Assembly (NCBI GenBank): GCA_030248295.1
Contig: JASANH010001389.1
Coordinates: 434,001-498,000, forward strand
Source of the DNA: Mesodorylaimus sp. YZB2_4
Taxonomy: Eukaryota; Nematoda; Enoplea; Dorylaimida; Dorylaimidae
Length of the DNA stretch: 64,000 bases
Direction: 5' to 3'
Part shown: positions 1 to 20,774 of the stretch, in pieces
Layout: every line of letters begins with the position of its first letter
Position numbering within the stretch: position 1 is the stretch's first letter
The notes under the pieces: generated by a model
The model's database searches: none
Told to the model about the DNA's origin: nothing
The model's input: the letters and a program-made list of their open reading frames with translations, nothing else
Program-made: the position numbers and the translations under genes

Positions 1-2557
1 CAAAATGGTGACGTGTGTGGCCCGTTGTTAAGGCCACCAAAAATCTCGCGTCAACATTAAAAAGCCTGCACGGAAATATACCAGCACGAGAAGGGTGGCT
101 GACGATTGGGCAAGTTCACTTCTTCGTTTGTGTACTTTCCATTATTCACACTGTCTATAAAGAAAACACAATAGCAAAATGGCGGAGAGCGTGTAATTCT
201 TGTTTGCTCATGAGTACTCGTGAAGAGACAAGGAGCAATTTCTAGCATCAACTTGGATTTTGGTAAACATATCGGGTCAATATTTACAAGGTTTTATAGC
301 CGAGAACAAGCAGTAACCATGTAGGAGTTAGGAGGAGGACGCAGATTTTTATATTCCGTCAGCATGCACTGAATGTGCGTCAAAAGAACTAGCTCCAACG
401 TTTTGAACCTTGTGCCAGTTGCGTTTTTTTAAGGACCCTATATGTTATCAATTCGTCCAAGCAGCAACACATGACAGAGGGGCTTTCTTCATTTGTTTCA
501 TGGCTGATTTGTGTCCACCTTTAACAGCAGTGCAAACGGAACGGGCCTCTAGATGTCCTCGTCGAGAGAGTCAAGGGGCTGTCTGGCTTGTTCTCTTGAG
601 TGCGCCTTCTACACTTGATTGAACATCTTTTCACGCTGAGAATGAAGAAGTTCGCACTTTTTCGTGCTGGCTTTCAAGCAGCAGCAGTTGCACCCCTGTT
701 CAAGTGTACCTGCTCTCAGATTTTAGAAAAGATCGAAGAGCCACCAAGGGTTTGGCACTGGATCCAAGTCAAAGTCACTAATGGACAGAGATAAATTAAC
801 GATTGAACGCTTTCAGACCCGTCTTCTTGATCGCTTCTCAAATGCGGCAAAGAAAATTAGGCCGGTCATTGAACATGTATTCGATCACACGTAAACAAGC
901 TCCTTGATTTGGAACCGTGCAAGATGGAAATTTCCATTGCCTCATTCTGAGATATGATTCAGCTGCTGACGACTGAAGCGTGTCAGATATCAGGATCAGT
1001 GAGCTTGTGCGCCCTTCTGGCTCCTTGTAGATGATTCGGACACAGCCCGTTTTATTTTAATTCAGCCAGCGCCCTGCTGCTGCTATCATGTGTACGTTAC
1101 ATTCGCTCACTCTGGCTCATAATAGTCTTCCCCCGCCCTCGCTTTCTGACGTACAATCGACTGATAAGGAAGATTCTCACGTTTCCCGAGGTCACGTATG
1201 AAGTTGCTGTAGGCGTTATCGCATGTTTTCCTTCCTTTCGTTCAGGAAGTAGAGATCCTGAAACGATGCGAGTTATTTAGATAATGTCGTGGGCATGGCA
1301 TGTTTAGATCCGTCTGTGTTCGCAAGTTTCTAATCAGCCCATTTATTGGCGTATGCATGGTGGTCATTTTTCAGATTACAAAAATTGCCATTATTAAATG
1401 GCCCGAGGGAACTATGAATATATTTCTCATGTGCGCGTATCCTGCTAACAGCTTTCCGTGTCCAGTGGCCAGAACAAAGCCGTTTTCTTGCTTTCCTTCC
1501 GTTGTAGCTTTCCAAAATACGTCCGTTGAAAGTGGGTTAAATCCTCAAGCAATTAACGAAGTCTTTATATAGTTTTTAAAATGAGGCACCGTTCGCGTAA
1601 ACATGGCGCCCTGTTGAGAAAAATTTCGACTCGTCAACTTTCCAAAATCCAAACAGCCGTATTAAAACTCGCTTTAGAGGGTCTTCACTTTGCCTAATTG
1701 CTATTGACCTTATCGAAACACCCAAGCCGACTTCTTCGTCACGTGTCCGTATGGAAGAGTATTTATGTTCAAGGCCTCCCTGTCTCCCCAGTCCCAGGTT
1801 CATAAGCGGCGGAGGAACCTAAAAGACTGGCTCTGGCGATAGCTAGAGAGGGGTCGCTTTTTCTTCTCTGACTGTCATGTCGAGGAAAGTTGTTCTTCTA
1901 GAGGATGAAGAAATAATTCATGTGCGGCTTGTAAGGAGCAGAGTTTAGTTTATCAGAAGCCATTTCTATGGTTGTGTCGATATGTCAGGAGTCGTGGGGA
2001 GAAGGGCGTCGTATGAGAGATTGGAGAGAAACGGGAGGAAATGGGTAGCGGAAGTTTAAGGGGCGATCCAACTCATTTTCGTTTCGTATCGTGTAACTGG
2101 GCTTGATTGAAAAAAGGACGAAGCCAGGGTCGTCGAAAGAATGCTTTGATAGCGGCGGCACATACGCACAAAGGAGCGAGTACGGACGGAGTCACGCTAG
2201 CAAAGTGGGAGTGTCGATAGCGAGGAAGACATGTTGAGAGATCCGTCTATTCATCAGCAGGCCTAATAGGGCGACGTAGATAGTCTGCGCCTGGTCCGAG
2301 AGTGAGAACGCGTCTCGACGAGCGAGATCACGATTGTAGTTTGTTGAATTTTTGATTAAAACTTGACTTTGACTGCGAAATGTGTTTCAGGTGCAAACCA
2401 GCCTGGAGAGTAGGCTGGCCGATCGAGGGCGTGTAGAGACCGCAATAGTCTGTGACGACGCAGCTGGAGATTATAAGACAGCGGCTAATCGGTTAGACAA
2501 AAGGGCCTGTATTATTGGGTGCTGGTAAAGGCCACACAAAGCCCGAGTCCACTGATC
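1..2557. other. no recognisable gene; upstream region of the amine receptor
   Basis: I found no supported coding exon here. The open frames are short, lack splice-flanked structure and match no domain I know. A good 3' splice motif (TGTGTTTCAG, ending near 2391) lies about 170 bp before the receptor start, so part of 2392-2557 may be 5' UTR of the GPCR, with one or more non-coding exons upstream. In-frame stops at 2474 and 2486 show that the coding region cannot extend continuously upstream of about 2489. Confidence 0.5.
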
Positions 2558-3697
2558 ATGATCTCCCTTGTTATCGCCGCCCAGTTCGCCATGGGCGCAG
2601 TGTTTTGCATGCTTTGCATGGTCGGGTTGCTCGGCAATATTCTCGTTTGTGTGGCCGTATATATTAATAAGAAACTACGGAAAAAAGAGAACCTGTATTT
2701 TGTGTCGCTGTCCATAGCTGATCTACTGATAGCCATCTTAGTCATGCCATTTGCCGCATTCAATGACGTTTTGGGGAGATGGCTGTTCGGCGAGTACTGT
2801 ATAATGTGGATGAGCCTGGACATAATGTTGTGCACGGCCTCGAATTTACATTTATGCGCGATCAGTTTCGACAGGTACTATCACGTCCATGATCCCATGA
2901 AGTACCATCAGCGAATGACCACACGGAAGATTCTTATGGCAATAGCCGCTGTATGGACTTTATCAGCAGTCACCGCATTTTCGCCTCTGTTGCTCGAAGA
3001 AATTCAGTTTCAACAAGCTCTCATTCAAATAAGATATAATTCCAGCGCCGAGAATATACAAAATTGTCGGTTCAACCTGGCGCCGCTTTACGCCGTTGTG
3101 TCTTCCATGGTCAGCTTCTATCTACCCTGTCTTATCATGATATTGGCTTATGCCAAACTGTACAAATATGCTCAACACCACGCGCTGACCATTTGGCTGC
3201 AGACCATGACAACATTCCTGGTCCATGTTGGATCTCTTCAAGTTGTGGGCGATGATCCGAAGTCGAGGAAGTGGAAAAAGAGCAGGAAGGTGGGTCCGTC
3301 GAGAGGAGATAGGAAAGCACGGGTGACACTGGGCGCCATCATGGGTGCATTTATTTGTGCTTGCTTACCATTTTTCGTATTCAATATTGCCAAAGCATTT
3401 TGTGGCGAGGTGTGCGTGCCAGATTGGCTTTTTACGACGAGTACATGGATGGGATATGCTAACTCCTCTCAGAATCCTATTCTATATTCGATATTCAATC
3501 GAGATTTCAGAATGGCTTTTCGACGCATTTTGGGCTGTGAGAAGAACTGTTGCAATAATCTAATCATAAAAAAGAAGAAGGCTGTATTGCAAGTGAATAA
3601 TAACAAAACGAACGGCTTGGCCTTCGCTAAAGAAGAAGAGCAGAAAAAGAAATCTCTGAGAATTATTAAAGTTAAGCATGAATGGCGCTCAATCTAG
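2558..3697 (+). CDS. biogenic amine receptor (class A GPCR, octopamine/dopamine D1-like)
   Basis: A predicted 379-residue seven-transmembrane receptor in one coding exon. It would bind a biogenic amine at the plasma membrane and signal through a G protein. Landmarks: GN in TM1 (N27), D55 in TM2, amine-anchoring D88 in TM3, DRY at 105-107, W133 in TM4, and a C81-C170 disulfide pair. TM5 has serines 182, 183 and 186 in the three catechol/phenol-contacting positions, followed by FYLP. TM7 has W297, Y300 and NPILY at 306-310. Cysteines 327, 331 and 332 may be palmitoylated. The KA..TLG.IMG stretch before TM6 resembles beta-type octopamine receptors, while TM5 resembles D1 dopamine receptors; I cannot decide the ligand. 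Odd point: TM6 reads CACLPFF, so the toggle tryptophan of CWLPFF is a cysteine (C269). The start is the first ATG after in-frame stops; it leaves a very short extracellular N-terminus, so an upstream coding exon is possible. Confidence 0.9.
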   Translation: MISLVIAAQFAMGAVFCMLCMVGLLGNILVCVAVYINKKLRKKENLYFVSLSIADLLIAILVMPFAAFNDVLGRWLFGEYCIMWMSLDIMLCTASNLHLCAISFDRYYHVHDPMKYHQRMTTRKILMAIAAVWTLSAVTAFSPLLLEEIQFQQALIQIRYNSSAENIQNCRFNLAPLYAVVSSMVSFYLPCLIMILAYAKLYKYAQHHALTIWLQTMTTFLVHVGSLQVVGDDPKSRKWKKSRKVGPSRGDRKARVTLGAIMGAFICACLPFFVFNIAKAFCGEVCVPDWLFTTSTWMGYANSSQNPILYSIFNRDFRMAFRRILGCEKNCCNNLIIKKKKAVLQVNNNKTNGLAFAKEEEQKKKSLRIIKVKHEWRSI

Positions 3698-4881
3698 CAG
3701 CTTCCTGCGGGTAATTTGCGGGTGCGGTTCTGCAAGTGGGAAATTGGTTTGATCTCGTTCAAGGTCCCTGAATGCCGAAATCAGTACTCCTAAAAATGGA
3801 CTCGTTAAGTGAAAAAAGCTCATGAGTCGAGATGCCTGCGATTTAAAATTTTTATCGATTTTGTGTGGGTGTGTACTTCAATATGAACTGAGCGGGTATT
3901 GCAGCACATTGTATGCTTATAATTCACAGGCCAAAATTACGAAAAGTCGTTGTGAAGGTTTTTGTTTGAAGCCTAAGCGGTTTGGGAAAAATAATATATA
4001 TCTTTGCTGTGCAAATCATTCAGTGCGTAGTCTATGCTGTTATAACACCATAATTTAATCCATGGCAGCTACGTACACCATTTCATGCCATACAATCCAG
4101 CCTTTATAGTCCAACACTGTGAAACGAAAAAGAAAAATAATCTCTGCACAGTGAGAGCGGTGCAGTGTTTCTTTATGATAGTGTACTACATGCTTTAAAA
4201 AAATTTGTTTTCCCGTGAAGCCAGTTTTAACCCTTACTGGAATACGTGTATTGGATACCTTGCAGAGCTGATTTAGAAAGATAGTGGGGATGACTATATG
4301 TGAGCAACGGAATGATTGTTCGACCAAGTTGATAGCTTCCTGCCATCTTGTCCAACGATCGTCAATAATTAACTGGCCGATTCAGATTTATGAGTCTTCT
4401 CCTCGTATCGCTCACGTGGTGACAAGAAGGGAGCGATGATAGACGATGCTTTCTTCGTGAATTTTTCGGCCTCCTACTTCCTCGCTGACCGCCAGATGCT
4501 CACTGGCCGCGCAGACATCTACTCTAATGACAGCAGTAGCTCTGTCCTTTGTCCTCTTCGTGGAATATTGATTGGACTTTGGGCAAGGTGGTTAGTGAAT
4601 AGGCAAGTTGTAACGAGATTATACTTGTCTACTCCTTTAGCCACTTCTCAGCAGCCAATGCCGGCCCCGGGATAGTCGCATTTGTTACTGGCGCCGCGAC
4701 TGATCCCAGAAGTTGTCCCTTGGAAACCGTCTGGCATCTTGTGTTTTCCTCCAGATGTTTTACTAGTCAGACGAAAGGTTGAAATTTTAGTCAAGCCAGT
4801 CGCTAAAAACCAGGATGAAGTGGGAGTCTGGAAGACGCGAAGTGCGTGGTGGGGTGTGGAAAGGGTGAAGTCTTTTTGAAC
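3698..4881. other. intergenic, no gene seen
   Basis: The 3' flank of the amine receptor and 5' flank of the MACPF gene. It is AT-rich near 3840-4100. No supported exon was found; short open frames are not flanked by matching splice sites. Confidence 0.5.
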
Positions 4882-6699
4882 ATGTTCGACATGCATTCTT
4901 TCCTGTTTGTTCTACTGCTTTGGTGCTCTGACCCTGGTGCACCGCTGGCCTCTATCACTGCCAGTACTACCCCTAGCATTTATCACCAGCATCGGCATCA
5001 CCACCACAAAACTCAGAATCTGAAACAATGGAGAAGCAGTGAGTATCCTGCCGAGGTATGCGCCGACAGACGGTACTGGAAGGCGTTACCAAATCCGGAC
5101 GGTGTTATCGCCTATGGCTACAATTTGATGACTGGCCAAATGACCACCATCCCAATCTTTAATACGACCATTTACGAAGAATCCGAGTGCCGTCTGAGTG
5201 GCCGCCGATCCCCGAATGGATCCTGGGACATGTACCGCTTACCCTCCTACGTCACCAGTTACTCATTCTATGACGAATCGACCAATCATAACTTGAAACT
5301 CCGATTTCGATTCAGCGTTTACAATTCAACACCAATGGCGTTATTAGATGCTAGAAAAACTCGCAGCCTGTCGATCGAAGTGGAAGGTGCACTGAAATAC
5401 GAACAGCTGTACGTAACCTTGAGATCGGCTCCAGTCAAGTATTACGCGGGTGCCAGAACATATTACGAAGCTGTGGAAGACTTGGCCTCGGCCAGTCGCC
5501 ATATTCCAACTATGAGATCGTCGGGCGACGCGGTGGCTCCTGTTTTGTACACCCTTAGATCAAGTGCGACGACAGGAGATTTCGAGTTGAAGCCGAGGGA
5601 GCAACTGCATTGGAGGCATTTGAGTGAACAACTTCGCAAGCGACTACGCCGAGTAATTGTGGACGATGACTTCCTGAGAGGATTTTTCGACGAGGTGGGC
5701 ACTCATTACGTGAAAAGTGGCACGTTTGGTGGAGTTAGCGAGCGGTGGTGGATTTCGAGACTGAGGCCAGAGAGGAAGTGCGCAATAGGCGAAGAATCGA
5801 GAGCCTTGGATGCTGCTCTTATGGCTGCCTGCGATCGGTTCCGGTTGGGCGGCTCGGATGACGAGGACGGTGGAAAAAAGACCGCAGAGTTAGGTAAGTC
5901 ACGTTCGTGCCAGGTGGTGTTATATACTGTACGTAAAAAGTAGGGGGCCACGTGAGAATACACAGCATTTGAATTTTCTGTGCTCAGCATTTTTTATCAA
6001 TTTGATCAGGTGATTTTGATTTTGATCAGAAGCTCTAACGCTGTTCGGCCTAACTTTGCAGAAACTAATACAACCGGCAACGCCATGATGCAGTCCTTGG
6101 CCACTCGTTGTCACTCTTCAGTCTTCGATGACGAGCGATTCCGAACGAGCCGTTGGACAGTGACATCCGGAGCGCCAGCGGAGAGCCTGAAAGCGGCCCA
6201 CATTCACCAAGCAGCATTTAGTGGTCGTTCGGGTGACGATCGACTTCAGAAATGGTTGGCCTCGCTAAACGACGAGCCAAGTACGGTTCGAGTCGATCTG
6301 ATCCCCATTTGCGACCTATTATCTTTGGTCGACGAACGACCTTGGCACACGGAACGATGCCAACAAAGTTTATTGGCCTACGTCAAAGCCAAAGATCCAT
6401 TCTACGCTGGCCGAGATTCAAAAATTTGTTCAAATCATGAACTTCCATTAAAATTCGAGAAGTTAAATCAAAATCCCATGGATAAAGGCCTTGTTAGGAA
6501 TCAGCTAGAGATCAATGGCCAAACAAATCGGAGCTTGCAAACTCATCAAATGTACTGCGTACCACGCCCCGTAAACTTACCAGAGAGAACATGCCGACTA
6601 GCATTAGCTAAGTCGAGTAATACTGTTATGAGATTCGGCTTTGGCTTCAGTTCTACGCTGTACATCTTATTTTGGATCTTCTATCCAGTGCTGACGTGA
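4882..6699 (+). CDS. MACPF-domain protein, secreted and probably GPI-anchored
   Basis: Two exons, 4882-5893 and 6062-6699, joined across a 168-bp intron (donor GTAAGT, acceptor TTTGCAG; phase 1), giving about 549 residues. The start is chosen at 4882 because it places a signal peptide first (MFDMHSFLFVLLLW); ATGs at 4846 and 4891 are alternatives. The MACPF signature sits around residues 268-288: F.DEVGTHYVKSG.FGGV, the GTHY...G.(F/Y)GG core of the perforin/complement fold. The second exon supplies the domain's usual C-terminal part, W.....(N)D.P..V....IPI.DLL. The protein ends in an uncharged hydrophobic stretch of about 20 residues with no cytoplasmic tail, as in GPI-attachment signals; a C-terminal membrane anchor is the alternative. 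MACPF proteins form pores or act in development. Nothing here says which, and no EGF, TSP1 or other partner domain is seen. Confidence 0.8.
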
Positions 6700-7540: not shown

Positions 7541-7876
7541 ATGTCAAAACTCACGTTAATGTTTGGTCTGCTGGTGGTGATGTGCACATGCAGTGCCCTC
7601 CCGTCACGAAACCAAATGCGGAAACGTCAAGCTTATCCCGACAACGCCGAAGCAGTGAGGAATCGAGACGTCTCGCTCCTCATGAAAGCCTACAGCAGCG
7701 TGGTCGAAGCGTCCAAGGCCCTCGATGAACTGGTCGGGCACTTGGGTAAAGTTGGTAACAGATTTTATAGAGACCATGGTCAATAGGTGATATAGTTTTT
7801 AGGCCCAGTCAGCAAGAGAGATGATCCGGCGGACAAACGGGCTGGTGAGAAATGGGAGTACATGCATTTTGGATAG
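7541..7876 (+). CDS. neuropeptide precursor 1 (C-terminal KWEYMHF-amide)
   Basis: Two coding exons, 7541-7745 and 7803-7876, split by a 57-bp phase-1 intron (GTAAAG...TTTTTAG), giving 92 residues. Residues 1-19 form a signal peptide ending CTCSALP. A basic site (RKR) follows, then a helical spacer of about 40 residues. The second exon has dibasic sites KR, DKR and then AGEKWEYMHFG-stop. Cleavage after DKR, trimming and conversion of the terminal Gly would give a peptide ending EYMHF-amide. An AATAAA at 7887-7892 follows the stop closely. The gene at 19867-20774 has the same layout, intron phase and ending (QWEFMHFG), so the two are paralogues. The ending loosely recalls sulfakinin/CCK peptides (HMRF-amide, WMDF-amide), but I do not recognise the family. 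Confidence 0.8.
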
Positions 7877-7886
7877 AAGATTTGAA

Positions 7887-7892
7887 AATAAA
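7887..7892 (+). terminator. polyadenylation signal of neuropeptide gene 1
   Basis: AATAAA ten bases after the stop codon of the 7541-7876 gene. It is the only canonical signal close downstream, so the 3' UTR would be very short. Confidence 0.5.
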
Positions 7893-8500
7893 CAGGTTGA
7901 TGTGACCTTCGTGCATTATTGAATATGGCTACACCATAATATAATCGATCATTTATAGTGGAAGGCAAACAGGTTACATGTTATGTTATGCTTGCTTTGT
8001 CCGAATGCCAAACACAGATATGGAGATGACGTTCGAGGAGATGAGAATACAGAAAACAGACGTACAGTACTCGTGCACAGATTCTACGTCGGTCTACTCA
8101 TGCTGTATTCCTCGGTTGCAACTATGTCCCCCCTCGCCTGAATCGATTGATGGGGCTAGCTTGAAATGTGAGTGCAAACGTGCGCTTATTCGGCACATAG
8201 AGACTTGTCTGGCAGAACCCTCTGCGTGGATGTGGTAGCTGGGACCGCCACCCGTCAGAGTTATGTTTCAGCCATTGCGCAGGTTGGAAGACTTGGTGGC
8301 TGCCCTGGGTATTTGGTGTGGTGCAAAAGCTCCATCTGTCGCTCCCTCTAGCAATATGAACCCAGGCATTATACTCATATGGAACGCAACTCATCAGAGT
8401 TCGTTGCGACGGAAGGCATGCTTCGAAAAAATTGTAAGTCAGGGCAGAGTAGCGATGCCACATGACGCTTGGATATGTCATTACGAAACAATCTATCAGC
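7893..8500. other. intergenic, no gene seen
   Basis: Region between the first neuropeptide gene and a SINE. The open frame at 7978-8238 has several cysteines but no signal peptide, splice context or homologue I can name. Confidence 0.4.
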
Positions 8501-8640
8501 GGCCGCGGTGGTGCAGCGGTTCCGCATGTGCCTCAGTATTGCTTGGGAGCGAGTGGCTAGACTCGTCCCAGGTTTGATCCCCGGTGATGGAGGTCGGGTT
8601 GCGAACCATAAACCTCGCTGACCTTGCACGCCAGGCCATG
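8501..8640 (+). repeat. tRNA-derived SINE, family A, head-containing copy
   Basis: The first ~85 bp look like a tRNA: an A-box-like GGTGGTGCAGCGGTTCCG and a B-box-like GGTTTGATCCC about 50 bp later. The same head occurs at 54943 (GGTGGTGCAACGGTTCC ... GGGTTCGATCCC) with matching intervening words such as GTATTGCTTGGGAGCGA. Because the intervening sequence is shared and the fold is poor, these are SINE copies rather than functional tRNA genes. Confidence 0.7.
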
Positions 8641-11510
8641 GGTAATTCACTTTTAGATAACTTCTTGCAACAATGCAGCTCTGGCACATTGCAGAATTGA
8701 CTTTTTTTTGGCCCAAGCAATATACGCTTCAGGCATTATCGCCACAAATCTAAGAAAGATGAAACCGTGTTTCAAAAGCTTGTTATAACTCTTGGCTAAC
8801 CTCGCTTACTTTACTTGATCCGCAAGACATTTTATCCACCGCTGGATCGATTTTAGGAAACCCATTGCACTGGGACATTGCGCGTACACCTGACTCGAAC
8901 GGCAATGGGGTATCTGGATTATTGACGTAGTGATTAACAAGACCAGACCCGTTTGAATGCAGCCAAAGCTGCGTTGAGGCCAAAAAATATTCCTCAGTCT
9001 TGACCCACTTGGCAACGTGAAGTTCGATGCCTTGACTGAGCCATTTGATAAAGCGGAAATCAATCCATTGGCCGTTGTAAACCTTTCCTACAATGAACCA
9101 GGGAGATCGATCCGTCGTCGTTTTATAATGCATTCCAATCGCTGCGCTTTGTTCACGAAGAACCATACACGTTTACCAATCAAGTCTGGCCTTTGCTTGA
9201 TCAACCTTTCATGAAACTGCAGCGCTGGCCTAAAAGTGTAAAGTGAAAAGTCGATGATGAGAAAGCAAAATAGCCTATTATCTGGTAAGATCGAGGTTTA
9301 GGATTCACTTTAGCTGATCATATTTGCTAACTTTTCCACTAAAGTATGTTGCGAATCATCAGTAAGCCGCAAATTTTAGAAAAACTCAAAAAGTCCTCGA
9401 CTTCAAAAACTCAAAAAATTTTCTACAAGGTGAATTCTAGTGTTGCAATTAAACGAAAATTTATTTCTTAGGACCCCTAACACAAAGCTTCCCTCAACTT
9501 TTATGCTGAAAAGCGGCTAAAACTTATCAGGGCCAAATATTAGCACCACTACTTCGAGGGAATCATAACAGCAATTTTCTTTCCGCGGGCCAAAGTCATC
9601 GAAACATCAAAATCGTGTATTTACCTTGGCATATTCCGACGCAGGATTAGCGCACATTATGAAAAGTCAAAAATTATCAAAAAGTATTTTGATGTGAGTT
9701 AGAAACAAAGTGACTGGGGCCAACGATAAAACCGAGGAGCAAACTTAGATTTTGAAGTGTTATATGCGAGCAAACGAGTGCGAGTTTAGAAAATATGACT
9801 TACTGAAAATCGTACGTAAGTTTTAGTCCTGGATCAATAAAAAAGAATTCTGAACTCAAAGCACGATAGGCATCGACGATGAAGTACACTGCTACGATGC
9901 CGTAATCGTACAGAATGACAAAAAATCCCAAGGAGTCAGATCTGGGCTAGAAGAGTGCAGCACATACTCTCAAATTCCTACAGTATGTATACAATATCAC
10001 TCTACTTCTGTACAGTACACGCTTACGTTATACACTATATTACAAACGCTATACCTACTTTATACGCTTTTATTACATTACCGGCTACGTCTTTCTGACC
10101 ATCCGACCTCATCTACAGGTAGCCTCAGGAAGATCAATTTCCAAGAAGATCAATGTCACTGACGCAATGTAGAGGATCATCAATGTAACATCGAACTAAT
10201 GATTGCTGTGCCTCCGCCGGGGGCATCTTGTACCACCATCAGCGACCTCAGGCTCCTCGAAAGCACTTATATAATGCTGGCTCTAGGCCTATGTATATTG
10301 TATATAGAGAGATAAGTCCAGCTCAAAGATAAGGCCAAAGACCAGTCCCCACCCTGTCAATGAGGAGGCTTACTAACAACTCACGATCAGTTAGAAATGG
10401 AACAGCGGTCTCCCAGACTGACTGTGGCCGAAACGCTATCTCAACTCTGATTTTACCCTTTCTTGGCCGCTGAGATTAATCCAGGAGAATGGGAATCCAA
10501 AATAGTACAGGTGCAGGACGTCTGAATCAGTCTAAAGCAAGGACCCTGGGCATTTGACTTTTTCTTCACAAGTTAAAAAACTGAAGGTGAGTCCTGCACA
10601 ATAGCCGCCAGCGTCAACAACAGTTCGAAACCTTGGAAGAGCAAGTAGACAAATAATAGCCGCTTAGATGGGAGCTCGGGTAGCCTTGTCTGCCTTAATT
10701 TTGAGCGCCTCGATAGGGGCTTGGACAAATACAAAAGAAAAGCTTTAGCTTTGACACGCTACTCTTTTTAAATTTCCCGCCATTTTTTAAATTTAATTTG
10801 ATTTTCCACAAAGCTGTGCTGCCACTGCCACGCATCCCAATGACCCCTGATAATTCTGCTTGTTAGAAGAATGGGAAAATGGAGTGTGACTCATACATAA
10901 GTAAGACATGTACATACAGTAAGTGAATACCCACAAGCCGTTCCTTTTAAGCGGCTTGTCCACAAAAATGCTATGCATCTCTAACACGTCTGAGCTCGAA
11001 CCAAGAGGGAGTGCCTGACCGGCGGAGCTTTTGCACCGCGCCAAAACCCAGGGCAGTCAACCAAGTCCCAGCCTAGTCCATGGCTGAAACATCAACCCAA
11101 CGGGTGAAGCTCTCAGCCGCTGGCTCTGAGCAGGGGATCATAAAGAAGATTACTGTAGTGTACCCTATTTAAAATTTTTTAGAAACTGCGAAATGGTCCC
11201 TTGCCAGATCGGCCTCTACTTATCAATCATCACCTTCGCGTGTCACGTCAGAGTGTTATGAGGTTAAAATAGCGCGAGAGAGTAACGTCGTGCGGAGAAT
11301 GTCGCGTCAAATAGGTTTTGTTCTCAAATTGAAAAGCTGCTGCGTTTGTGCGTACAGTACAAATGATACAGAGTTGCGATATGCAATTTTAATACAGTAT
11401 ACTATGAATATTTAAAATAAAATGCAGAAAGTACACACAATTTGTAAACGTAATTAGAAGTTATAATTATGAGCTATGAGCTCAAATAGTACATGAATTT
11501 GAAGATCGTA
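8641..11510. other. long intergenic stretch, no supported gene
   Basis: Largely AT-rich non-coding sequence. Reverse-strand frames at 8783-9166 and 8806-9063 contain scattered W, C and G residues that could be a decayed C-type-lectin-like exon, but no signal peptide or splice sites support it. A stretch around 9980-10090 is rich in GTATAC/TACAGTA words, with no clear repeat unit. Confidence 0.4.
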
Positions 11511-11571
11511 GGATGGGCTCTGTCTCAGGTGACCGCCCGTCTCGCTTGGCCACCTGAGACAGAGCCCATCC
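11511..11571. repeat. perfect 21-bp inverted repeat with 19-nt loop
   Basis: Arms at 11511-11531 and 11551-11571 are exact reverse complements; each contains GGCTCTGTCTCAGGTG or its complement. The loop (11532-11550) holds CCGCCCGTCTCGC. The same words (GGTCACCTGAGACAG, CGACCGTCTCAC, CGGCCAAGCGAG) recur at 11627, 12129-12170 and 12213-12263, so the hairpin belongs to a local repeat family. Confidence 0.9.
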
Positions 11572-12270
11572 AGTGTATAAGTGATGTTAAGACTATGACG
11601 TCATCCCTTTAGTGACCTGACAAAATAGCCGACCGTCTCACTTTACCGCCCCTTGATAAGAACACGGATCCTGTGAGTAAATTAGAAACCATGTATGCAC
11701 TTTCTTTTAAATGCTTCTGACATCCCATTTTTTCCGTGACAGAAACTGGAAATCTCACAGTCAAAATGCTAAAATGACATTCGCATAAGTGGAAGCACTC
11801 GCAGCGTCTAACAAGAACCTGATATGGCGCAGATATTGATCGATTTCCATAAGCAAAGGCAGTATAGTCCCGTTCGCTGGGGGCAGCGCACGTCTTCTGA
11901 CCAATGCAACTTTTGCATCAACAATCTGTTGATCGACTCTGACATACTGTACCTTTGATCTCTTTTACTTGGTTTCTTCGCCGCTCTGCTATTCCGACCC
12001 TGGCTGCATTGTGCGCCACTTGTAGCCACGGAGGAAGGTACGAGTATTGAGAGCTGGATGCGGCTTCCAGAAATCATGATTAAGGGTTGTGGTACCCCTC
12101 AGCATGATGTGTGGTAAGAGGGCCTTACATTTAGTCGGCCAAGCGAGTCAGTTGGTCACCTCTCAAGATCAGGCATACATTAGACGGCTACCTAAGACAG
12201 TCGGTCATGTGAGAAAGACGGCCAATTGAGGCCGACGGTCACCTGAGACAGTCGACCTGGTGATAAATAA
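11572..12270. repeat. cluster of GTCACCTGAGACAG / CGGCCAAGCGAG repeat modules
   Basis: Short modules related to the hairpin arms and loop recur here. Examples are CCGACCGTCTCAC near 11630, GTCGGCCAAGCGAGTCAG near 12132, and GACGGCCAATTGAGG followed by CGGTCACCTGAGACAGTCG near 12220-12254. Similar words (CGGCCAGGCGGGATGGTCGG, GGCGGGACTGCCGGCC) appear at 18290-18330 and 18800-18890. It looks like a degraded non-autonomous element family; no transposase or target duplication is visible. Confidence 0.45.
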
Positions 12271-14450
12271 TCGATGAGGGGCCCATCAATTCAGAAAGTC
12301 CTTGGTGCTACCCATCAACCGAGCTATTCGTTTTTAGCAAACCATCGACGACTGAAGCATGACAATGTCACAACTGTACAAGTAGGGGACACGGCGATCC
12401 ATGTATCCTCCAGGGATCCAGTAACCCAAAATTGGCTATTCTTCACAAGGGAAGAAGTGGCCAGCATTATGAATGCTACAACAACATCTACGATTGCAGC
12501 AAATGGGGGAAATCGAAACGATAGCAGGAAGCATTTTTCGTATCTTTCTCGTGAGCCAGGAGCTTGGACGGCACGCCAGATGCACTGTCCCTAGTGAAAA
12601 AGATCACGGCTGGTTTACTTTGGAAAGTGATACGGGGTTGCCAAGAGATGTTCGCGGATGTTGAATGGCTATATCCCGCGGGTTTTTTCAACTTTCTGAA
12701 CAAGACCTGACCATCGTACAGTACGGTGTCTAAGATTTTGTATTTTCAAAAAAATTTTAAAAATTTGTATCTACATAGTCAACATATACTGTGTATATCT
12801 ACATATACCATCTACATGGTCAACGTGCTTAGTCATCCTCCATCTCTGACATGTCCTTGAAATTAGTCAGAACTGTATTCTGGATCGGATGAATTTGTTT
12901 AATTTGCGCCATTATGCTATTGATTCATTGTTCCCGCCAATGATGTGCGATGGTCTCCTAGGGACACTGTATGATGAACATCATCAATCAAAACACGATC
13001 TCTTTCTGTAATTGCACTAGCCATGTCGGCGCTAGCTCCAAGAGAGACCAAGACAAAGGGTTGACAAAACGCAAATTACAGTAGTTAATTTTAAGGTAGC
13101 AGCGATCGTGATTTTCGCTGTGGGCATCATGCTTTATTTGTTCATTCTTTTAAGCCCTTTCCAAGTTTCAATGCGCAAAAGTAAGCTCAGGACCAGATTC
13201 AGGCCAAATAAAGTTTCTGAACTTTCTAAATAAACCGTTCAAGCACGTTCGAAAAGGGCTGGATCTCCTGTGTAGCTGGATCTCCTGTGAGGGGGCGTGA
13301 CCATCATTAGGCACTGGCGGATAAGACTATGTAAGAAGACCTGCCAGGTTGCTCCAGAAAATTCCATGGTCCATCTACATATGGCTGACCGCCTAGAATA
13401 CTTGCCTTTGCAGTGGCTGACGGATGATTTGAATCGCCGATGGATGAGGAGTGTGCTGGCCATGCACAAGGATGTAGTCAAGGACGTGATTGATGCCACC
13501 GAATCGACTAAGCCCGCCACTTTTCAAATGGAACCGTCAATGTGAAGTGAAGCACACGCTTGGTCCAATGGAATGTGGAAGAAATCGATAGCGGTCTGGG
13601 GTATCGATCGCCATCACTTTATTTGCCCTGACGTTGCAGCTATTTTTGGAATAGGTTCTATGTAAAATGCGTGTGTGGCTAGTCTACTGTAGTCTGTCTT
13701 TAGAATCTTGTGCCTACAGCTTGTGTACAGTACAGCGCAAGAGTGACTGCATTTTTTTTCCTGCCGATTATACAGTATGATTTGGCGATCGGGTCTTGTT
13801 ACCATAGCCGCACTAATACGCGAACTGTGCTGCAAACGTGAGCAAATGCAGGATGCATGATTGAGTGCATACTGACTCCTTTCCCGCTAAAGCGCGCCCA
13901 TGCAATGATGCCAGCCAAAGTTTTGGCTGTTTTCAATGTGCAACCAGATGGGAAACTTTTTTATCAACCCAGAAAATCCTGCCCAAAACACGGCCACCAT
14001 TATCAAAAAGTTACCAAAACAAATTTTTTAACCAAAAATGCCCGTTACCAAATGTCAAAACAGAAAAACTCTTAACCCGGCGAGTGAGAAGTATTATCAA
14101 ATTTAGTGGCGCCGCTCTTTCATTGGATCTTCTCTCTCCGGTCTTTCACATCGTTTGGGCGTCTGTTCCGTTAAAGACTTCGGCAAGTATTGCTTCGTAA
14201 ATTGGCATCACAATCTGGAAAAGAGGGAAAAATGCAAAACCGATTTTTTTTGTGCATGCTAGCATGATAAGCCAGAACTCAGGAAACTCGAAGTTCCCGA
14301 GGGCAATATGCGTACTGTACTTACTAACGAAATCTAAGATAAAAGCAATCATCCTAATCTTTCAAGGCTCAAACTAGGTCCAATCCCACATTGTATAATC
14401 CCTTGGATTCCCACGTGCATGTCGGTCATTGGACCTAAGTGACAATGTTC
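12271..14450. other. intergenic, no supported gene
   Basis: Contains several 60-110-codon open frames on both strands (for example 12274-12594 and 13297-13545, both +). I cannot link them to exons or domains. The mostly AT-rich sequence holds no tandem repeat that I can see. Confidence 0.4.
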
Positions 14451-14455
14451 AGTTA

Positions 14456-14763
14456 AGGACCTATGACTGCTGGAGAAATGCTACGACTGATATACCCATT
14501 GCCCGTAAGCACCTGATTGAAATCTTTGCGGAATGCCACCACGGCTTCGTCCAGTGTCTCTTTGCGCGCAGAACTGTTCACAATATCGTATTGCAGTTGC
14601 AATAAGGCGCCGATCGGCACAGACGAACTACGAGAGCCAGCTGGAATTTCGGCGTACATTTTCTTTATTGCGGGTGCTCGTACATTTCCGCGAACGATTG
14701 GGTAAACCTGCTTGATGAGCGAACCCATTTTTTGCAGAATGACCGAATCGTGATTTGCCAATC
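14456..14763 (-). CDS. possible orphan exon of unknown protein
   Basis: On the minus strand an acceptor-like ACTCGCTTCAG ends at 14764 and is followed by about 100 open codons with balanced, protein-like composition (for example SLIKQVYPIVRG and LLQLQYDIVNSS). It may end at the stop at 14456 or earlier at a weak donor near 14516. There is no start codon upstream in frame and no partner exon that I could find. It could be one exon of a larger gene, a pseudogene fragment or chance. Confidence 0.3.
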
Positions 14764-14865
14764 CTGAAGCGAGTCAGCCTCAACCTGCAGCGAGGAGCCA
14801 GAAAATTCTGCAGGGCATTCTAGGAACAACAAAAAACAAGGCTGGGAAATCAGACGATTTCACGC

Positions 14866-15391
14866 AAAAAGAGCGCAGCAAGAAGGGCGCATCCAAAAAG
14901 GGCGCATCCAAAAAGGGCGCAGCAAAAAGAGCGCAAGGAAGCAAGCACGAAGGGGGGGGGGGGGTATAAGTGAGCCAATGGTATCTTAATGAGTATTATA
15001 ATCATTCGACTGTCCAGTTTGACTACCAAACCATACCTCTCATTCCTGCCTCTATAATCGGTTTAAGATCCCAAGAGTCCATATCCCGATTCCTCAATCC
15101 CAGCTGCTCAACGCGTTCGCACAGGCATTCTTGCTGCTCCACTAAACCCTAACCCTCTTTCTAGGAGCTGGTCGCTCCACATGAGTATCTGAAATGAGCA
15201 AACATTAGCTGGTCAGACGGCTCCCTATCGGTAAGGGTCCAAATAAAATTCTTGTCTGTCTGCTTCTAAAAAAGTAAAAATTATACACACAAACACTTGC
15301 GTTTTTTTACCTTCCGCCCTTTTTACCCATGCGCCCTTTTCGGATGCGCCCTTCTTGGATGCGCTCTTTTTGGGTGCGCCCTTTTAGCCTG
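14866..15391. repeat. element bounded by inverted arrays of a ~15-bp GGGCGCATCC motif
   Basis: Left array (about 14866-14936): several copies of AAAAAGGGCGCATCC and variants. Right array (about 15312-15391): the same motif in the opposite orientation (GGATGCGCCCTTTTT and variants). The sequence outside each array is also partly mirrored: CAGACGATTTCACGC at left, GAGACGAAATCAGACG at right. The ~375 bp between holds a G14 run, a telomere-like CCCTAACCCT (15147-15156) and no open frame of note. Inverted terminal repeats made of subrepeats suggest a non-autonomous DNA transposon. The right end abuts the 21-bp minisatellite. Confidence 0.5.
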
Positions 15392-15416
15392 AGACGAAAT
15401 CAGACGAAGTTCCTAA

Positions 15417-16485
15417 GGAGGTCCCAGGGTATCCCCGGGAGGTCCCAGGGTATCCCCGGGAGGTCCCAGGGTATCCCCGGGAGGTCCCAGGGTATCCCCG
15501 GGAGGTCCAGGGTATCCCCGGGAGGTCCCAGGGTATCCCCGGGAGGTCCCAGGGAATCCCCGGGAGGTCCCAGGGTATCCCAGGGAGGTCCCAGGGAATC
15601 CCCGGGAGGTCCCAGGGTATCCCCGGGAGGTCCCAGGGTATCCCCGGGAGGTCCCAGGGAATCCCCGGGAGGTCCCAGGGTATCCCAGGGAGGTCCCAGG
15701 GTATCCCCGGGAGGTCCCAGGGTATCCCAGGGAGGTCACTGGGTATCCCCGTGAGGTCCCAGGGTATCCCTGGGAGGTCCCAGGGAATCCCCGGGAGGTC
15801 CCAGGGTATCCCCGGGAGGTCCCAGGGTATCCCAGGGAGGTCCCAGGGAATCCCCGGGAGGTCCCAGGGAATCCCCGGGAGGTCCCAGGGTATCCCCGGG
15901 AGGTCCCAGGGAATCCCCGGGAGGTCCCAGGGAATCCCCGGGAGGTCCCAGGGAATCCCCGGGAGGTCCCAGGGAATCCCCGGGAGGTCCCAGGGTATCC
16001 CCGGGAGGTCCCAGGGTATCCCCGGGAGGTCCCAGGGAATCCCCGGGAGGTCCCAGGGAATCCCCGGGAGGTCCCAGGGAATCCCCGGGAGGTCCCAGGG
16101 TATCCCCGGGAGGTCCCAGGGTATCCCAGGGAGGTCCCAGGGAATCCCCGGGAGGTCCCAGGGTATCCCCGGGAGGTCCCAGGGTATCCCAGGGAGGTCC
16201 CAGGGAATCCCCGGGAGGTCCCAGGGTATCCCAGGGAGGTCCCAGGGAATCCCCGGGAGGTCCCAGGGAATCCCCGGGAGGTCCCAGGGTATCCCCGGGA
16301 GGTCCCAGGGTATCCCCGGGAGGTCCCAGGGTATCCCAGGGAGGTCCCAGGGAATCCCCGGGAGGTCCCAGGGAATCCCCCGAGGGTCCCAGGGTATCCT
16401 TGGGAGGTCCCAGGGAATCCCCGGGAGGTCCCAGGGAATCCCCGGGAGGTCCCAGGGTATCCCAGGGAGGTCCCAGGAAATCCCC
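15417..16485. repeat. minisatellite, 21-bp unit, about 51 copies
   Basis: About 1069 bp of a 21-bp unit, GGGAGGTCCCAGGGTATCCCC, tandemly repeated with high identity. Two positions vary in a nearly binary way: T or A in GGG(T/A)ATC, and C or A in CCC(C/A)GGG. Single-base indels occur near 15504 and 15740. Because 21 is a multiple of three and the unit lacks stops, both strands are open in several frames (heptapeptides GRSQGIP on +, PGIPWDL on -). These frames are a consequence of the repeat and I do not call them genes. The unit is G/C-rich with many CCCGGG sites. Confidence 0.95.
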
Positions 16486-16725
16486 ACTCTCTCTCCTCGT
16501 ATGCATGGCAAGGTTGCATGTTCATACCAGAATCGCCGTACACTGGCGACGGGCTTCCGTCGATAATTGATCGCGGACTGGACTCGAAGAAGGAACGACC
16601 GCTAGAAGCAGCTGGGCTGGGCGATCTACTTTTTATTTAAACTTGAATAACCTTAGGCTCATCTTTCTTAATATTTTAAGCGAATCACGCTTCAAAATTT
16701 TAACATACCGCAGACCGATTACTTA

Positions 16726-16907
16726 CCGCTCTCCTTTTTCGGCGGTATACGCAACTGCATTTGCCTGGTTCGATCTTTTAAGTGAATGGACATCGAGCCT
16801 GTCGCGGTTATTTTGATGCCGTCATCGTCCACGGTAACAGATGTTCCGTCTAAGTCATTTGTCTCGGCCATAGCTTTCGTCTCTTCTTTTGAATGTATGC
16901 GGCCCAT
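16726..16907 (-). CDS. possible first coding exon of a small acidic protein
   Basis: An ATG at 16907 (second ATG at 16871) opens about 60 codons with a hydrophilic composition (AETNDLDGTSVTVDDDG, then basic RIPPKKES). It ends at a strong donor, GAGAGCG|GTAAGT. The frame and donor support a real exon. The next exon should lie below 16720 on this strand; a short terminal exon around 16680-16705 is conceivable but not demonstrable, and the minisatellite starts soon after. I do not recognise the protein. Confidence 0.35.
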
Positions 16908-17040
16908 GTTGATAACAGACGCAGAAATCCGACAAACCGCTCACGGGAACTTTCGAGTCCAACAATGTCGCTGCGTTTCTTGTTCAACACTCCATGATAG
17001 TGTATGTAGAGGCATTAAAGGCCAGAAAACAGGTATGTCC

Positions 17041-17145
17041 AATAATTTGGATATATGCAAAGCAGGGAGTTGCACAGGGCCTAGCCCGAGAACATATACG
17101 TCTGATAATTGGGAGATATGCAAAGCAGGGAAAATGCACAGGACC
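17041..17145 (+). repeat. diverged tandem duplication of ~40 bp
   Basis: TAATTTGGATATATGCAAAG (from about 17043) and TAATTGGGAGATATGCAAAG (from about 17105), each followed by CAGGGA..TGCACAGG.CCT, form two copies with a period of about 62 bp. No function seen. Confidence 0.7.
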
Positions 17146-17274
17146 TGTTCTAGCAGAGTATAAACGGATCTAAACTAGTCTATGCGCCTTGGCATCCTCA
17201 GGCCAAGTTCAGTCCAGAACAAGAACTTTATCACTGCTTTTGGTTTTGGCCAGAACTGTTGATTGTCGATCAAT

Positions 17275-17405
17275 TGAGCCCACCGTCCGTCAAAGACACA
17301 CCTACACTACCAGACAATAAGCTCAAATAACCAGCCCGACTTGGAGTCGAACCCAGCCCATAGCTCCCGCTACCACGCTCTTACCTCTGCGCTAGCAGCA
17401 AGCTA
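17275..17405 (-). repeat. tRNA-derived SINE or tRNA pseudogene
   Basis: On the minus strand TAGCGCAGAGGTAAGAGCG (A-box-like, around 17385) is followed about 30 nt later by GGGTTCGACTCC (B-box-like, around 17345). The anticodon arm is poor and the ends do not form a clean acceptor stem, so a tRNA-derived repeat is more likely than a working tRNA gene. Confidence 0.5.
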
Positions 17406-19100
17406 AGTGATGCACCTACTGAGCGTGTTTGCACTGCTGTTAAATGCAAGCGAGCGCTAAGCCAGCCATCAACAGCTAGAAGTGCAGCCTGTCCTTCTAT
17501 CCCTTTGCGTGCAAGCCGACCTACAGCACATCAATCCATAGACCCTCCCCTATATATGTACTGTACATACAGTACACACAAATGTGGGTAAGAGTTATCA
17601 ATAACTTGGCACTTTTTGTGAGTCTAGTGCAGAAAAGAGGCTAGGAGGACCAGCCAATGCATGCAGAGCCAATACGACGGACTTGCTCTGACAGAAAGAG
17701 CGAGAAAAAGCGCAGGGTGAGCAATAAAACCGAACACTTTTGAGTATGCAAGGGATCTCCATGGTGGACAGTGACATGACTATGTAAAGTACTTGGTGCG
17801 CAGACTGACTGGATGATTGGGAGACCTATGGCAGATTTATATTTCGCGCTTATTTCGAATGTTAACCATTTTACACCCCTTTTTTATTTAGAAAGTAAAA
17901 ATTAAAGGAGTTCAAACCAGATAAGCTTTTGTAGTCTAATCGGGCTATAAATTCCGAGGGAATTTTGCGCCTGTTTCTCAATAAACCATTGCCTGCAAAG
18001 CTGTCGCGCGAGTTTTCGAGACGAGACGGCTTTAATTACAATATTACTGGAAATTTTCAATCTTACTTTGCCGTAACTCTCCAGGACTCTGTTTTTCCCC
18101 AGAATTTCATCACGAGTGAAATCAACCGAATCCTAATTCACATGCGGGAAATATGCGGGAAATCGTTTCGCGGATTTCTGCCCTTCACCTTCGAGAGCGG
18201 GTATCCTCGTTTGGTAATGCGGTAAAATGAACATGAACATGCATGGACAGCTTGCGTTGATTAGGATGGGCGATTGTGTATCTCCTGACCGAATTTAGCC
18301 GGCCAGCGACTGTCCCGACTGCCGAAAAATGTAAGGATTTCTGGGGAAACTAGAGGTGTCCGGTCTGGCCGATTAATGCAGATCATGTCATTCTGATAAA
18401 ACGAAGAAACCAAAAGCCAGTTTAATTCGTTCAACACGTTGGTTCAGTTTCTCTCATTCTTTCTCATCTAATCGAAATGGCGGACCAACCGATCATGGCG
18501 AAGCAAATTTCATGCTTACTTTACATGGAAATGCTAGTTTACTCAAAATCGGAATTGATCAATTGCAACGTGGAGAGTTGGCTCGATTAGGAGACACAGA
18601 GTCGATTAAAGATATGCTGATGCAAAGCGTATTTTTTCTATGTGACGTGGCATGATACCTATGAATGCAGGCGTGATGTCCTTACTGCTGAAGGGTGATG
18701 CTTTATTAGCGATTTCGTCAATCTGCTTGAATAGGCCTTGATTCTTTCCTTGTTCCTTGGCAGACATGTGATACCAATGTATTGCAAGCCTTGTTCTAAT
18801 GCCTTTTCGGCGTGGCGGGACTGCCGGCCATCATCTTTAGGTCACTAATTCTCTTGTCGGCCAGGCGGGATGGTCGGTGACCATGAGCGGAATATCACCG
18901 CATGAGCGATGAGCATGCCGTGATGCATGAGATGCATGAGCGTTGATCCTCTATCGCATTCTCAAGAAGGCGCTCCACTATTTATGTTCACTCTGTACAT
19001 TACGGTCCATCAGCTGAATTTCCACCCATGACCACATTATCGTCAGCAGCAATTATTATCAGCCACACTAATATCATTATCACATTTCTAATTCATCTGA
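17406..19100. other. intergenic, no supported gene
   Basis: Holds a possible LTR-like patch near 17940-18000 (TATAAATT, then CAATAAACC) without defined ends, and the GC-rich CGGCCAGGCGGG words at 18290-18330 and 18800-18890 shared with the 11.5-12.3 kb repeat cluster. Also a run of ATGAGC/ATGCATGAG words around 18895-18945. No coding exon recognised. Confidence 0.4.
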
Positions 19101-19104
19101 GTGG

Positions 19105-19330
19105 AGAGACGAAAGCGAAACAAGGACAGTCTCGGCTGTCGAACACCTACAGAGCTCACAATCCACCCGCCATCGTCCGAGGAAGTCGGTGTCCTGTCCA
19201 GGATTCCCTCGTGTGGAGGTGCTCCTAGTGGAGACGCGCAGAGGGACGCTGCCGTGGGAGCTGGTCACCTCACGGCCTTGCGGATATTATGTGGCTTGGG
19301 CCCCCCGCGCTGAAGGGGTGGCAAGCCACA
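19105..19330 (+). repeat. tRNA-derived SINE, family A, headless copy (body and tail)
   Basis: From about 19118 the sequence matches 55060-55190 closely (AGTCTCGGCTGTCGAACACC, CGCCATCGTCCGAGGAAGTC, GTGGAGGTGCTCCTAGTGGA, ACGCAGAGGGACGCTG). The tRNA-like head of the full copy is absent. It continues into GGCTTGGGCCCCCCGCGCTG and a T-rich tail. This is a 5'-truncated SINE or the shared tail of a LINE/SINE pair. Confidence 0.75.
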
Positions 19331-19774
19331 ACATTTTTTGTTTGTTTTAAAAAACTGAGGTGTGAACTCGTACTATGACTCCTCCCAAGGTTTTTAAAGC
19401 TCGGAAAATGTATATCGTTTATATGTCTAATGTCTGGCCTACCCGAAGGACCTATGTATGCCTATGCCATCCAAACTCCTGCTGTCGCATTCAGAGTAAA
19501 GCTTGTTTTGATCATTTGGAAGCCTTACGACCCAAAATACGTCAAGAGTCATTTAAGTACACCCTCAAATTGTCTCGTTCCCCATCGATTCTCTCGTTAA
19601 AAATATGGCCGGCCCACGCTATTCTCGGAATGAGCATAGGTATTACGTGTAATCGTCGAAATAACACGACCACTTACTGGATGCCGGTACACATGTCAGA
19701 CTGACGTCGCTCAGTGATTTTCTCGGAAAGGTCATTTTGTTACAGCGTAACTAAAAGCCTTATTCTACAGCTCG
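19331..19774. other. intergenic, no gene seen
   Basis: Region between a SINE tail and the TATA box of the second neuropeptide gene; no supported exon. Confidence 0.4.
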
Positions 19775-19781
19775 TATAAAA
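19775..19781 (+). promoter_or_regulatory. TATA box of neuropeptide gene 2
   Basis: TATAAAA about 90 bp before the start codon at 19867. It mirrors the TATA box of the paralogous gene at 7368. Initiation would be expected near 19803-19810. Confidence 0.5.
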
Positions 19782-19866
19782 TGCTTTCATTCAAGAAGGG
19801 GTCCATGGTTTGTGAGCAGAGCAGTCCGTCTTATCTTGTATAACTAGACAGAATTCGATTCTGAAT

Positions 19867-20774
19867 ATGTTGGAGAGGGGCTTGAAGCCACTTATGTTCA
19901 CCAGCGCCATCTGTCTGGTCATTGTGACGCAGTGCGTTGCTGATGATGGTTCCCGAAAATGGCCGAGTAAAGGGATACTGGAGAAAAGGGAAGGCTTGAC
20001 AGTAGATGACAAGAAGGTCCTGAATTATCAATCGGATCGAGAGCTGGGACAGCTGGCCGAACTTGTTTTGGACGAAATGGAAAGGCAGAGAGAGATGGAT
20101 GCTAAAAACAGTATGTGGGACTTGATCATATTGGTGCTCTTCCTCTTTGTTTAAGGAGGAGCATCTGAGGCCAGCATAGCATCTAGTAGCACTAACGTGA
20201 TTCCATCACCTTGTAATACGATGTGCCAGTGCCACAAAATCCGGTGCCAAGTGTTTCAGTTGATCCTTTTATAACGGTGGGACATCAGGCATTCTACAGT
20301 ACTTTATGGTATATCTGTTCAACCTTCAGTTAGCTCTACCCGCTCTCTGTGACACTGTATGGGTTATTTCGCATTTCGCATGACGCCAAAAACCCGAGCA
20401 TGCAACCAAGTCTACCGGCTTCGGTCCTTGCCGAAACCATCAACTCAAACACACCTGCAAGTGTGTAGACACTTCGCACTTCCCCAACGTCAGACACACT
20501 GCCTGGGCGCTGCGTGAGCATGAGGGTCTGAGGGGCCTTGGCAGGTCACCCCAGCATTGGCTGACAAAGGTCGCTTGTCAGAAGGCGCTAAGCACACTTT
20601 CACTTTCCGGATCTGCCCTGAGGACGCTAGGGTGTCAGTAGTTCATTGCAACTTGAATGTCCTCTTATTCCCTTTGCAGAAGCCATTCGACGAAAACTAA
20701 GCAAAAGGCGTAACGGAAAGCGGCGTAATAAGCCCGATCAGCAAGAGCAATGGGAGTTCATGCACTTCGGATGA
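19867..20774 (+). CDS. neuropeptide precursor 2 (C-terminal QWEFMHF-amide)
   Basis: Two coding exons, 19867-20110 and 20680-20774, split by a 569-bp phase-1 intron (GTATGT...TTTGCAG), giving 112 residues. A signal peptide covers about residues 1-25 (hydrophobic FTSAICLVIVTQC). A spacer with basic sites follows (EKR, DDKK), then in exon 2 SKRR, GKRR and the last product NKPDQQEQWEFMHFG-stop. Cleavage after KRR and amidation from the terminal Gly would give a peptide ending QWEFMHF-amide. Layout, intron phase and the WE(Y/F)MHFG ending match the gene at 7541-7876. In this paralogue the Tyr is Phe, so it lacks the sulfatable Tyr of classical sulfakinin/CCK. Family not recognised. Start 19867 is the first ATG after the TATA box; 19894 is an alternative. 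Confidence 0.8.

Follow-up and report, generated by a model that had tools for sequence, protein, structure and literature searches.

The stretch considered here is a 64,000-nucleotide window of the Mesodorylaimus sp. YZB2_4 genome (positions 434,001 to 498,000 of contig JASANH010001389.1, here C65). It carries two genes, A and B, that encode predicted amidated neuropeptides with the ending WE[YF]MHFG, and a third gene of this kind, C, lies on another contig, C74. Judged from their sequences, the three are probably small nematode neuropeptide genes that descend from a FMRFamide-like peptide (FLP) gene of the AF1/AF2 kind, with histidine in place of the penultimate arginine. Such a descent is the best reading, though not proof, because of the peptide frame shared with FLPs, a match of the gene A spacer to the spacer of an FLP gene, and linkage to flp-8-type genes in both of the genomic blocks concerned.

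The spliced frames of genes A and B, both on the plus strand, are open from ATG to stop, confirming the proposal of a preliminary description of this DNA that the window holds two genes with a phase-1 intron, basic sites and a WE[YF]MHFG ending at the stop codon. Introns of A, B and C were deduced from GT-AG sites and the reading frame, and all three frames, read by eye, contain an apparent signal peptide, a basic cleavage site before the peptide and an amidation glycine after it. Gene A ends in KRAGEKWEYMHFG and gene B in KRRNKPDQQEQWEFMHFG (in a longer stretch, RRKLSKRRNGKRRNKPDQQEQWEFMHFG), each directly before the stop. The count of two did not stand, as the genome-wide search recovered gene C. 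The proposal that these are paralogous precursors of amidated neuropeptides with a selected C-terminus is supported, and the third copy strengthens it.

The motif does not recur by chance. In the window, a coding 20-mer has two matches with up to two mismatches, while two matches were seen in 0 of 100 dinucleotide shuffles (mean 0.02). Across the 145-Mb genome, the coding pattern TGGGARTWYATGCAYTTYGG has three forward matches, with none for the reversed or control patterns, in comparison to about 0.009 expected from base composition; a chance motif was rejected on these counts. All three exact WE[YF]MHFG sites lie directly at a stop. The looser pattern E[YF]xHFG has 14 matches genome-wide, namely genes A, B and C and 11 others, none of which combines a nearby upstream basic site with a following stop or basic residue. 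Likewise, WE[YF]-x-x-FG has five matches, three in the family and two without such context, yielding no further members and no intermediate of the form WE[YF]xRFG.

These results bear on the reading that the three genes are non-functional, either as decayed FLP paralogues or as chance reading frames. Consistent with that reading, gene C has no TATA box within 260 bp, and AATAAA or ATTAAA is present within 300 bp after the stop of A but was not found for B or C. The genes had also been described as TATA-driven, which is not established: TATAAA is 173 bp upstream of the ATG in A and 92 bp upstream in B, C lacks it within 260 bp, and when 5000 stretches of that length were drawn at random from the window, 9.9% contained TATAWA. 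Non-functionality is nevertheless very improbable, given three matches where 0.009 are expected, the intact frames, splice sites and stops, and the conservation of the peptide. Six of the seven C-terminal residues are identical across A, B and C, and the KWEYMHFG of A and C is identical, with three silent and no replacement codon differences. Since the A and C codons differ only silently and blastn found no match covering these two genes, the peptide has been conserved while the rest diverged.

Outside the peptide, the three genes are unequally similar. The spacers of A and C are similar (z 9.7; 0 of 1000 shuffles), while the A-B comparison gives p 0.045 and the B-C comparison p 0.49. On this comparison, the paralogy of A and C extends from the peptide into the spacer. 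The earlier statement that only the last residues are alike thus holds roughly for A and B but not for A and C. In addition, placement and sequence disagree: placement pairs B with C, each lying tail-to-tail with an flp-8-type gene, while sequence pairs A with C. A tandem duplication before the block duplication, followed by a loss on C74, or alternatively fast change of B, would explain this mismatch.

The peptides follow the frame K-x-E-[FY]-hydrophobic-[RH]-F-amide, which A and C match and in which B has Q for K. When KWEYMHFG is set alongside KHEYLRFG and KNEFVRFG, histidine replaces the penultimate arginine. The score of KWEYMHFG against KHEYLRFG has a P of 0.0003 (0.03% of random 6-mers placed before FG reach it), the best fit of B is to KTEFLRFG (0.2% of random 6-mers), and the eight peptide comparisons range from 0.0003 to 0.019. 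This frame is that of flp-8/AF1 (KNEF[I/V]RFamide), flp-14/AF2 (KHEYLRFamide) and the KTEFLRFG gene, whose layout of signal peptide, spacer, phase-1 intron and KR-flanked amidated peptide is also shared. Unlike those genes, A, B and C have His before the last Phe and Trp at position two, encode one peptide per precursor rather than two to five, lack the Cys of the FLP spacers and have a longer N-terminal extension.

Other FLP genes of the genome were available for comparison. Two adjoining genes lie on C25 (C25:542001-552000, 2781-3556 and 4480-5313), one encoding KTEFLRFG five times and then PYAWRMG, which has an RM end, and the other of flp-14 type with KHEYLRFG and KNEYLRFG. Two tandem flp-14-type genes lie on C393 (C393:15001-25000, 4536-5187 and 8030-8497), the first with four KNEYLRFG and the second with KNEYLRFG, KHEYLRFG and KNEYLRFG and an additional phase-1 intron in the spacer. 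The two C393 genes, A, B, C and the two flp-8-type neighbours described below (F1 and F2) have a common layout of signal peptide and spacer, one or more phase-1 introns and an exon with the KR-flanked peptide.

The spacers of A, B and C were compared with FLP spacers in 18 comparisons. The gene A spacer and that of the KTEFLRFG gene score 44 points; shuffling in one direction and the other gave at least this score 4 and 7 times in 20,000, which becomes about 0.004-0.006 once multiplied by the 18 comparisons. Of 1825 frame pieces, just two reach 44, both of them gene A itself, and the next best reaches 39. The spacer match of gene A favours the KTEFLRFG gene over the adjacent flp-8-type gene, so more than one FLP gene is a possible parent.

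Linkage is the third line of evidence. Gene F1, an FLP precursor gene on the minus strand (23-24 kb) not mentioned in the preliminary description, lies 2.3 kb from gene B, and a second KNEFVRFG gene, F2, lies 0.4 kb from gene C (Table 1). The flp-8 consensus is KNEF[I/V]RFa (PMC4058706; this and the other papers below are cited for those parts of their text that concern these peptides), which the KNEFVRFG copies of F1 fit. F1 and F2 are paralogues (exon 1, E 2e-9; spacer, z 15.8). K[NH]E[FY]xRFG has matches at just four loci in the genome, and by our own arithmetic the chance of lying within 25 kb of such a locus is about 0.0014, counted as one event. When C65:424001-498000 (1540 stop-to-stop frames of at least 30 amino acids) was compared with C74:32001-92000, matches fell on the WEYMHF gene, on the FLP gene and on several further stretches, which we take to be putative repeats. 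The longest C65-C74 DNA match covers window positions 45091-45551 (74% over 481 bp). From this arrangement, we infer that a locus with a WE[YF]MHF gene and an flp-8-type gene was duplicated between C65 and C74, with C65 holding both A and B. Separately, retrotransposon-remnant-like frames lie at 44087-46356 on the minus strand (a weak, sub-threshold RVT_1 match in one of the two frames scanned), and a related stretch lies on C74 near 83 kb.

Table 1. Coordinates of the three WE[YF]MHFG genes and of the neighbouring flp-8-type genes (window positions unless a contig is named; cleavage and amidation of the peptides are predicted)
Feature	Position	Strand	Remarks
Gene A, exon 1	7541-7745	+	apparent signal peptide (judged by eye) and spacer
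Gene A, intron	7746-7802	+	57 bp, GT-AG, phase 1
Gene A, exon 2	7803-7876	+	KR sites and stop
Predicted peptide A	7841-7873	+	AGEKWEYMHF-amide; codons include Gly
Gene B, exon 1	19867-20110	+	apparent signal peptide (judged by eye) and spacer
Gene B, intron	20111-20679	+	569 bp, GT-AG, phase 1
Gene B, exon 2	20680-20774	+	polybasic sites and stop
Predicted peptide B	20727-20771	+	NKPDQQEQWEFMHF-amide; codons include Gly
Gene C, WE[YF]MHFG precursor	C74:62283-62643		52-bp phase-1 intron; ends in KRAAADKWEYMHFG, then stop; predicted peptide AAADKWEYMHF-amide
Gene F1, flp-8/AF1-type FLP precursor	24110-23056	-	four KNEFVRFG; tail-to-tail with gene B
Gene F1, exons	24110-23897, 23653-23573, 23513-23415, 23105-23056	-	phase-1 introns; stop included
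Gene F2, flp-8-type	C74:64168-63077	opposite to C	five KNEFVRFG; tail-to-tail with gene C

Several observations weigh against descent from an FLP gene. FLPs are defined by an Arg-Phe-NH2 end (PMC4196577), a strict definition that excludes A, B and C, which end in His-Phe-Gly. Replacing the penultimate Arg by Ala drastically cut the activity of FLP-15-2 and FLP-21 at all receptors tested (PMC6751662). The resemblance of the frame was noticed after the fact, and the adjacent KNEFVRFG is not the best-fitting peptide (P 0.006 for A and C, 0.009 for B). After correction, none of the other 17 spacer comparisons is significant; the closest is C against F1 (p 0.019). The spacers of B and C do not match that of the KTEFLRFG gene (p 0.24 and 0.49), the flp-8-type spacers show no clear resemblance to those of A, B or C, and setting a profile of A plus C against three FLP spacers gave no match (probability 0.25%). 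Within the family, a protein search with C did not recover A even at E 10, and the spacer of B is marginal to that of A and unlike that of C. The place of gene B therefore rests on its peptide, intron phase and linkage. The spacer test itself has low power, since no match was obtained even between the flp-8-type and flp-14-type spacers (p 0.16-0.75).

In a rival reading, the genes would form an independent non-FLP family, either new or restricted to a lineage, whose linkage to flp-8-type genes is due to chance or history and whose peptides have converged on K-x-E-aromatic-x-x-F-amide. The 17 non-significant spacer comparisons, the empty profile comparison and the absence of an RFamide ending all fit such a family, as does the Pfam search, which at E up to 1 gave no family for A or B and, for C, nothing beyond a TPR match below threshold. 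Convergence would nonetheless have to account for the peptide frame together with linkage to a KNEFVRFG gene in both blocks, for the match of the A spacer to the KTEFLRFG gene, and for an exon layout like that of the FLP genes of this genome. We therefore regard an independent family as unlikely.

The preliminary description had named sulfakinin/CCK as the nearest peptides in style. In these peptides, the sulfatable Tyr follows an acidic residue and is the sixth from the C-terminus in sulfakinin and the seventh in CCK. A sulfakinin/CCK-type origin with a shifted or lost Tyr would agree with a short amidated C-terminus containing aromatic residues (as in the nematode NLP-12), Met and His, and with the acidic residue (Glu) before the Tyr of A and C. 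On the same side, exact codons for the NLP-12-type motif DYRPLQFG were not found, in a search with this single motif that can miss variants. Set against the consensus, the Tyr of A and C is fourth from the end rather than sixth or seventh, B has Phe instead, and the penultimate residues do not fit. Linkage, frame and the A spacer point to FLPs, and the FLP frame and flp-8-type neighbours fit better, leaving a sulfakinin/CCK-type identity with hardly any credence.

If A, B and C are FLP-derived, they would work like FLPs, following established neuropeptide biology, on which the expectations of cleavage, amidation and action on a G protein-coupled receptor (GPCR) are based. The precursor, with its apparent signal peptide, would enter the secretory pathway, where a proprotein convertase would cut after the KR or KRR sites. 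Amidation at the encoded Gly would then yield AGEKWEYMHF-NH2 from A, AAADKWEYMHF-NH2 from C and NKPDQQEQWEFMHF-NH2 from B. Their targets may be FLP receptors of the rhodopsin type, or a descendant that arose by duplication and whose Arg pocket accepts His, which would provide a side channel to KNEFVRFamide signalling. Either tolerant FLP receptors would be used or a receptor would have co-evolved. Possible, but doubtful, is a stronger version, a dedicated nematode HFamide channel in which Arg has changed to His, three copies are under selection and co-evolved receptors no longer rely on Arg.

The genome itself is that of a nematode, since it has 133 matches to the cuticle-collagen N domain, a nematode-typical family with no matches in 14 control genomes (presumably not of animals), as well as flp-8-type and flp-14-type genes. 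The SL1 leader was not found in the genome with up to two mismatches, and an 18S core pattern has one candidate match. There are 35 matches to the PHM C-domain, indicating only that the amidating enzyme family is encoded. Elsewhere in the window, a D1-like dopamine receptor frame lies upstream of gene A at 2489-3697 on the plus strand (7tm_1, E 6e-57; the best relatives among solved structures are D(1A) dopamine receptors, E about 3e-68); a frame whose MACPF match is sub-threshold (E 0.0018) lies at 4819-5943 (plus). At 15417-16485, a 21-bp unit is repeated 51 times as a minisatellite; both strands there have long open frames that are probably spurious. The minus strand carries an acetyl-CoA carboxylase gene at 28662-36244 (ACC_central, E 2e-185 for 30174-32216; full extent judged by eye) and a BTB-domain frame at 42147-42758 (E 1e-9), and a secretin-family GPCR frame lies at 62421-62753 on the plus strand (7tm_2, E 5e-7).

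A histidine before the last Phe has precedents in other animals. The Drosophila FMRFa-1 peptide SVQDNFMHFamide is of FMRFamide type with an Arg-to-His change, and its FMHF core also occurs in B (EFMHF). It is one odd copy among the many RFamides of a single precursor, unlike the three genes described here. The Drosophila species investigated all retain this FMHFa. It activates the FMRFa receptor, although one study ranks five or six other peptides higher (PMC2575521, PMC12035899), and because it has no Arg, its detection by MALDI was difficult (PMC2575521). In hard ticks, FMRFa/MS-like peptides ending in [IL]-[LM]HFamide have been described (PMC13022164), also from an FMRFamide-related precursor. 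Unlike A, B and C, that precursor is the single arthropod FMRFa/myosuppressin orthologue with at least six mature peptides, and the cited portion of the paper has no WE[YF] core. The acoel SxLHFamide, the sea-urchin SpurS8 IHFamide and the XHFamide of a lophotrochozoan larva share the His-Phe-amide end, but in the corresponding excerpts they are reported as LxFamide or SALMFamide-like, or merely named, with no FLP frame in evidence.

Among nematodes, one survey used BLAST to find 2143 flp genes in more than 100 species and lists the end variants RY, RL and RM, all of which keep the Arg (PMC11658156). The main texts of two further surveys contain none of the HFamide or MHF terms sought in them (PMC4405611, PMC8764417). 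Searches of the open literature did not find a nematode HFamide, though they did not cover supplementary peptide lists and do not establish its absence from print. Earlier flp mining sought Arg-Phe-Gly (PMC4196577), and searches of this kind miss HFamide genes by construction. Here the HF peptide genes and a presumed relative of their parent gene are close together in one genome. If the reading given here is true, an Arg-to-His branch would be added to a major nematode peptide family, an old family having branched off a new version, and these genes would put to a natural test the rule that receptor activation requires the penultimate Arg.

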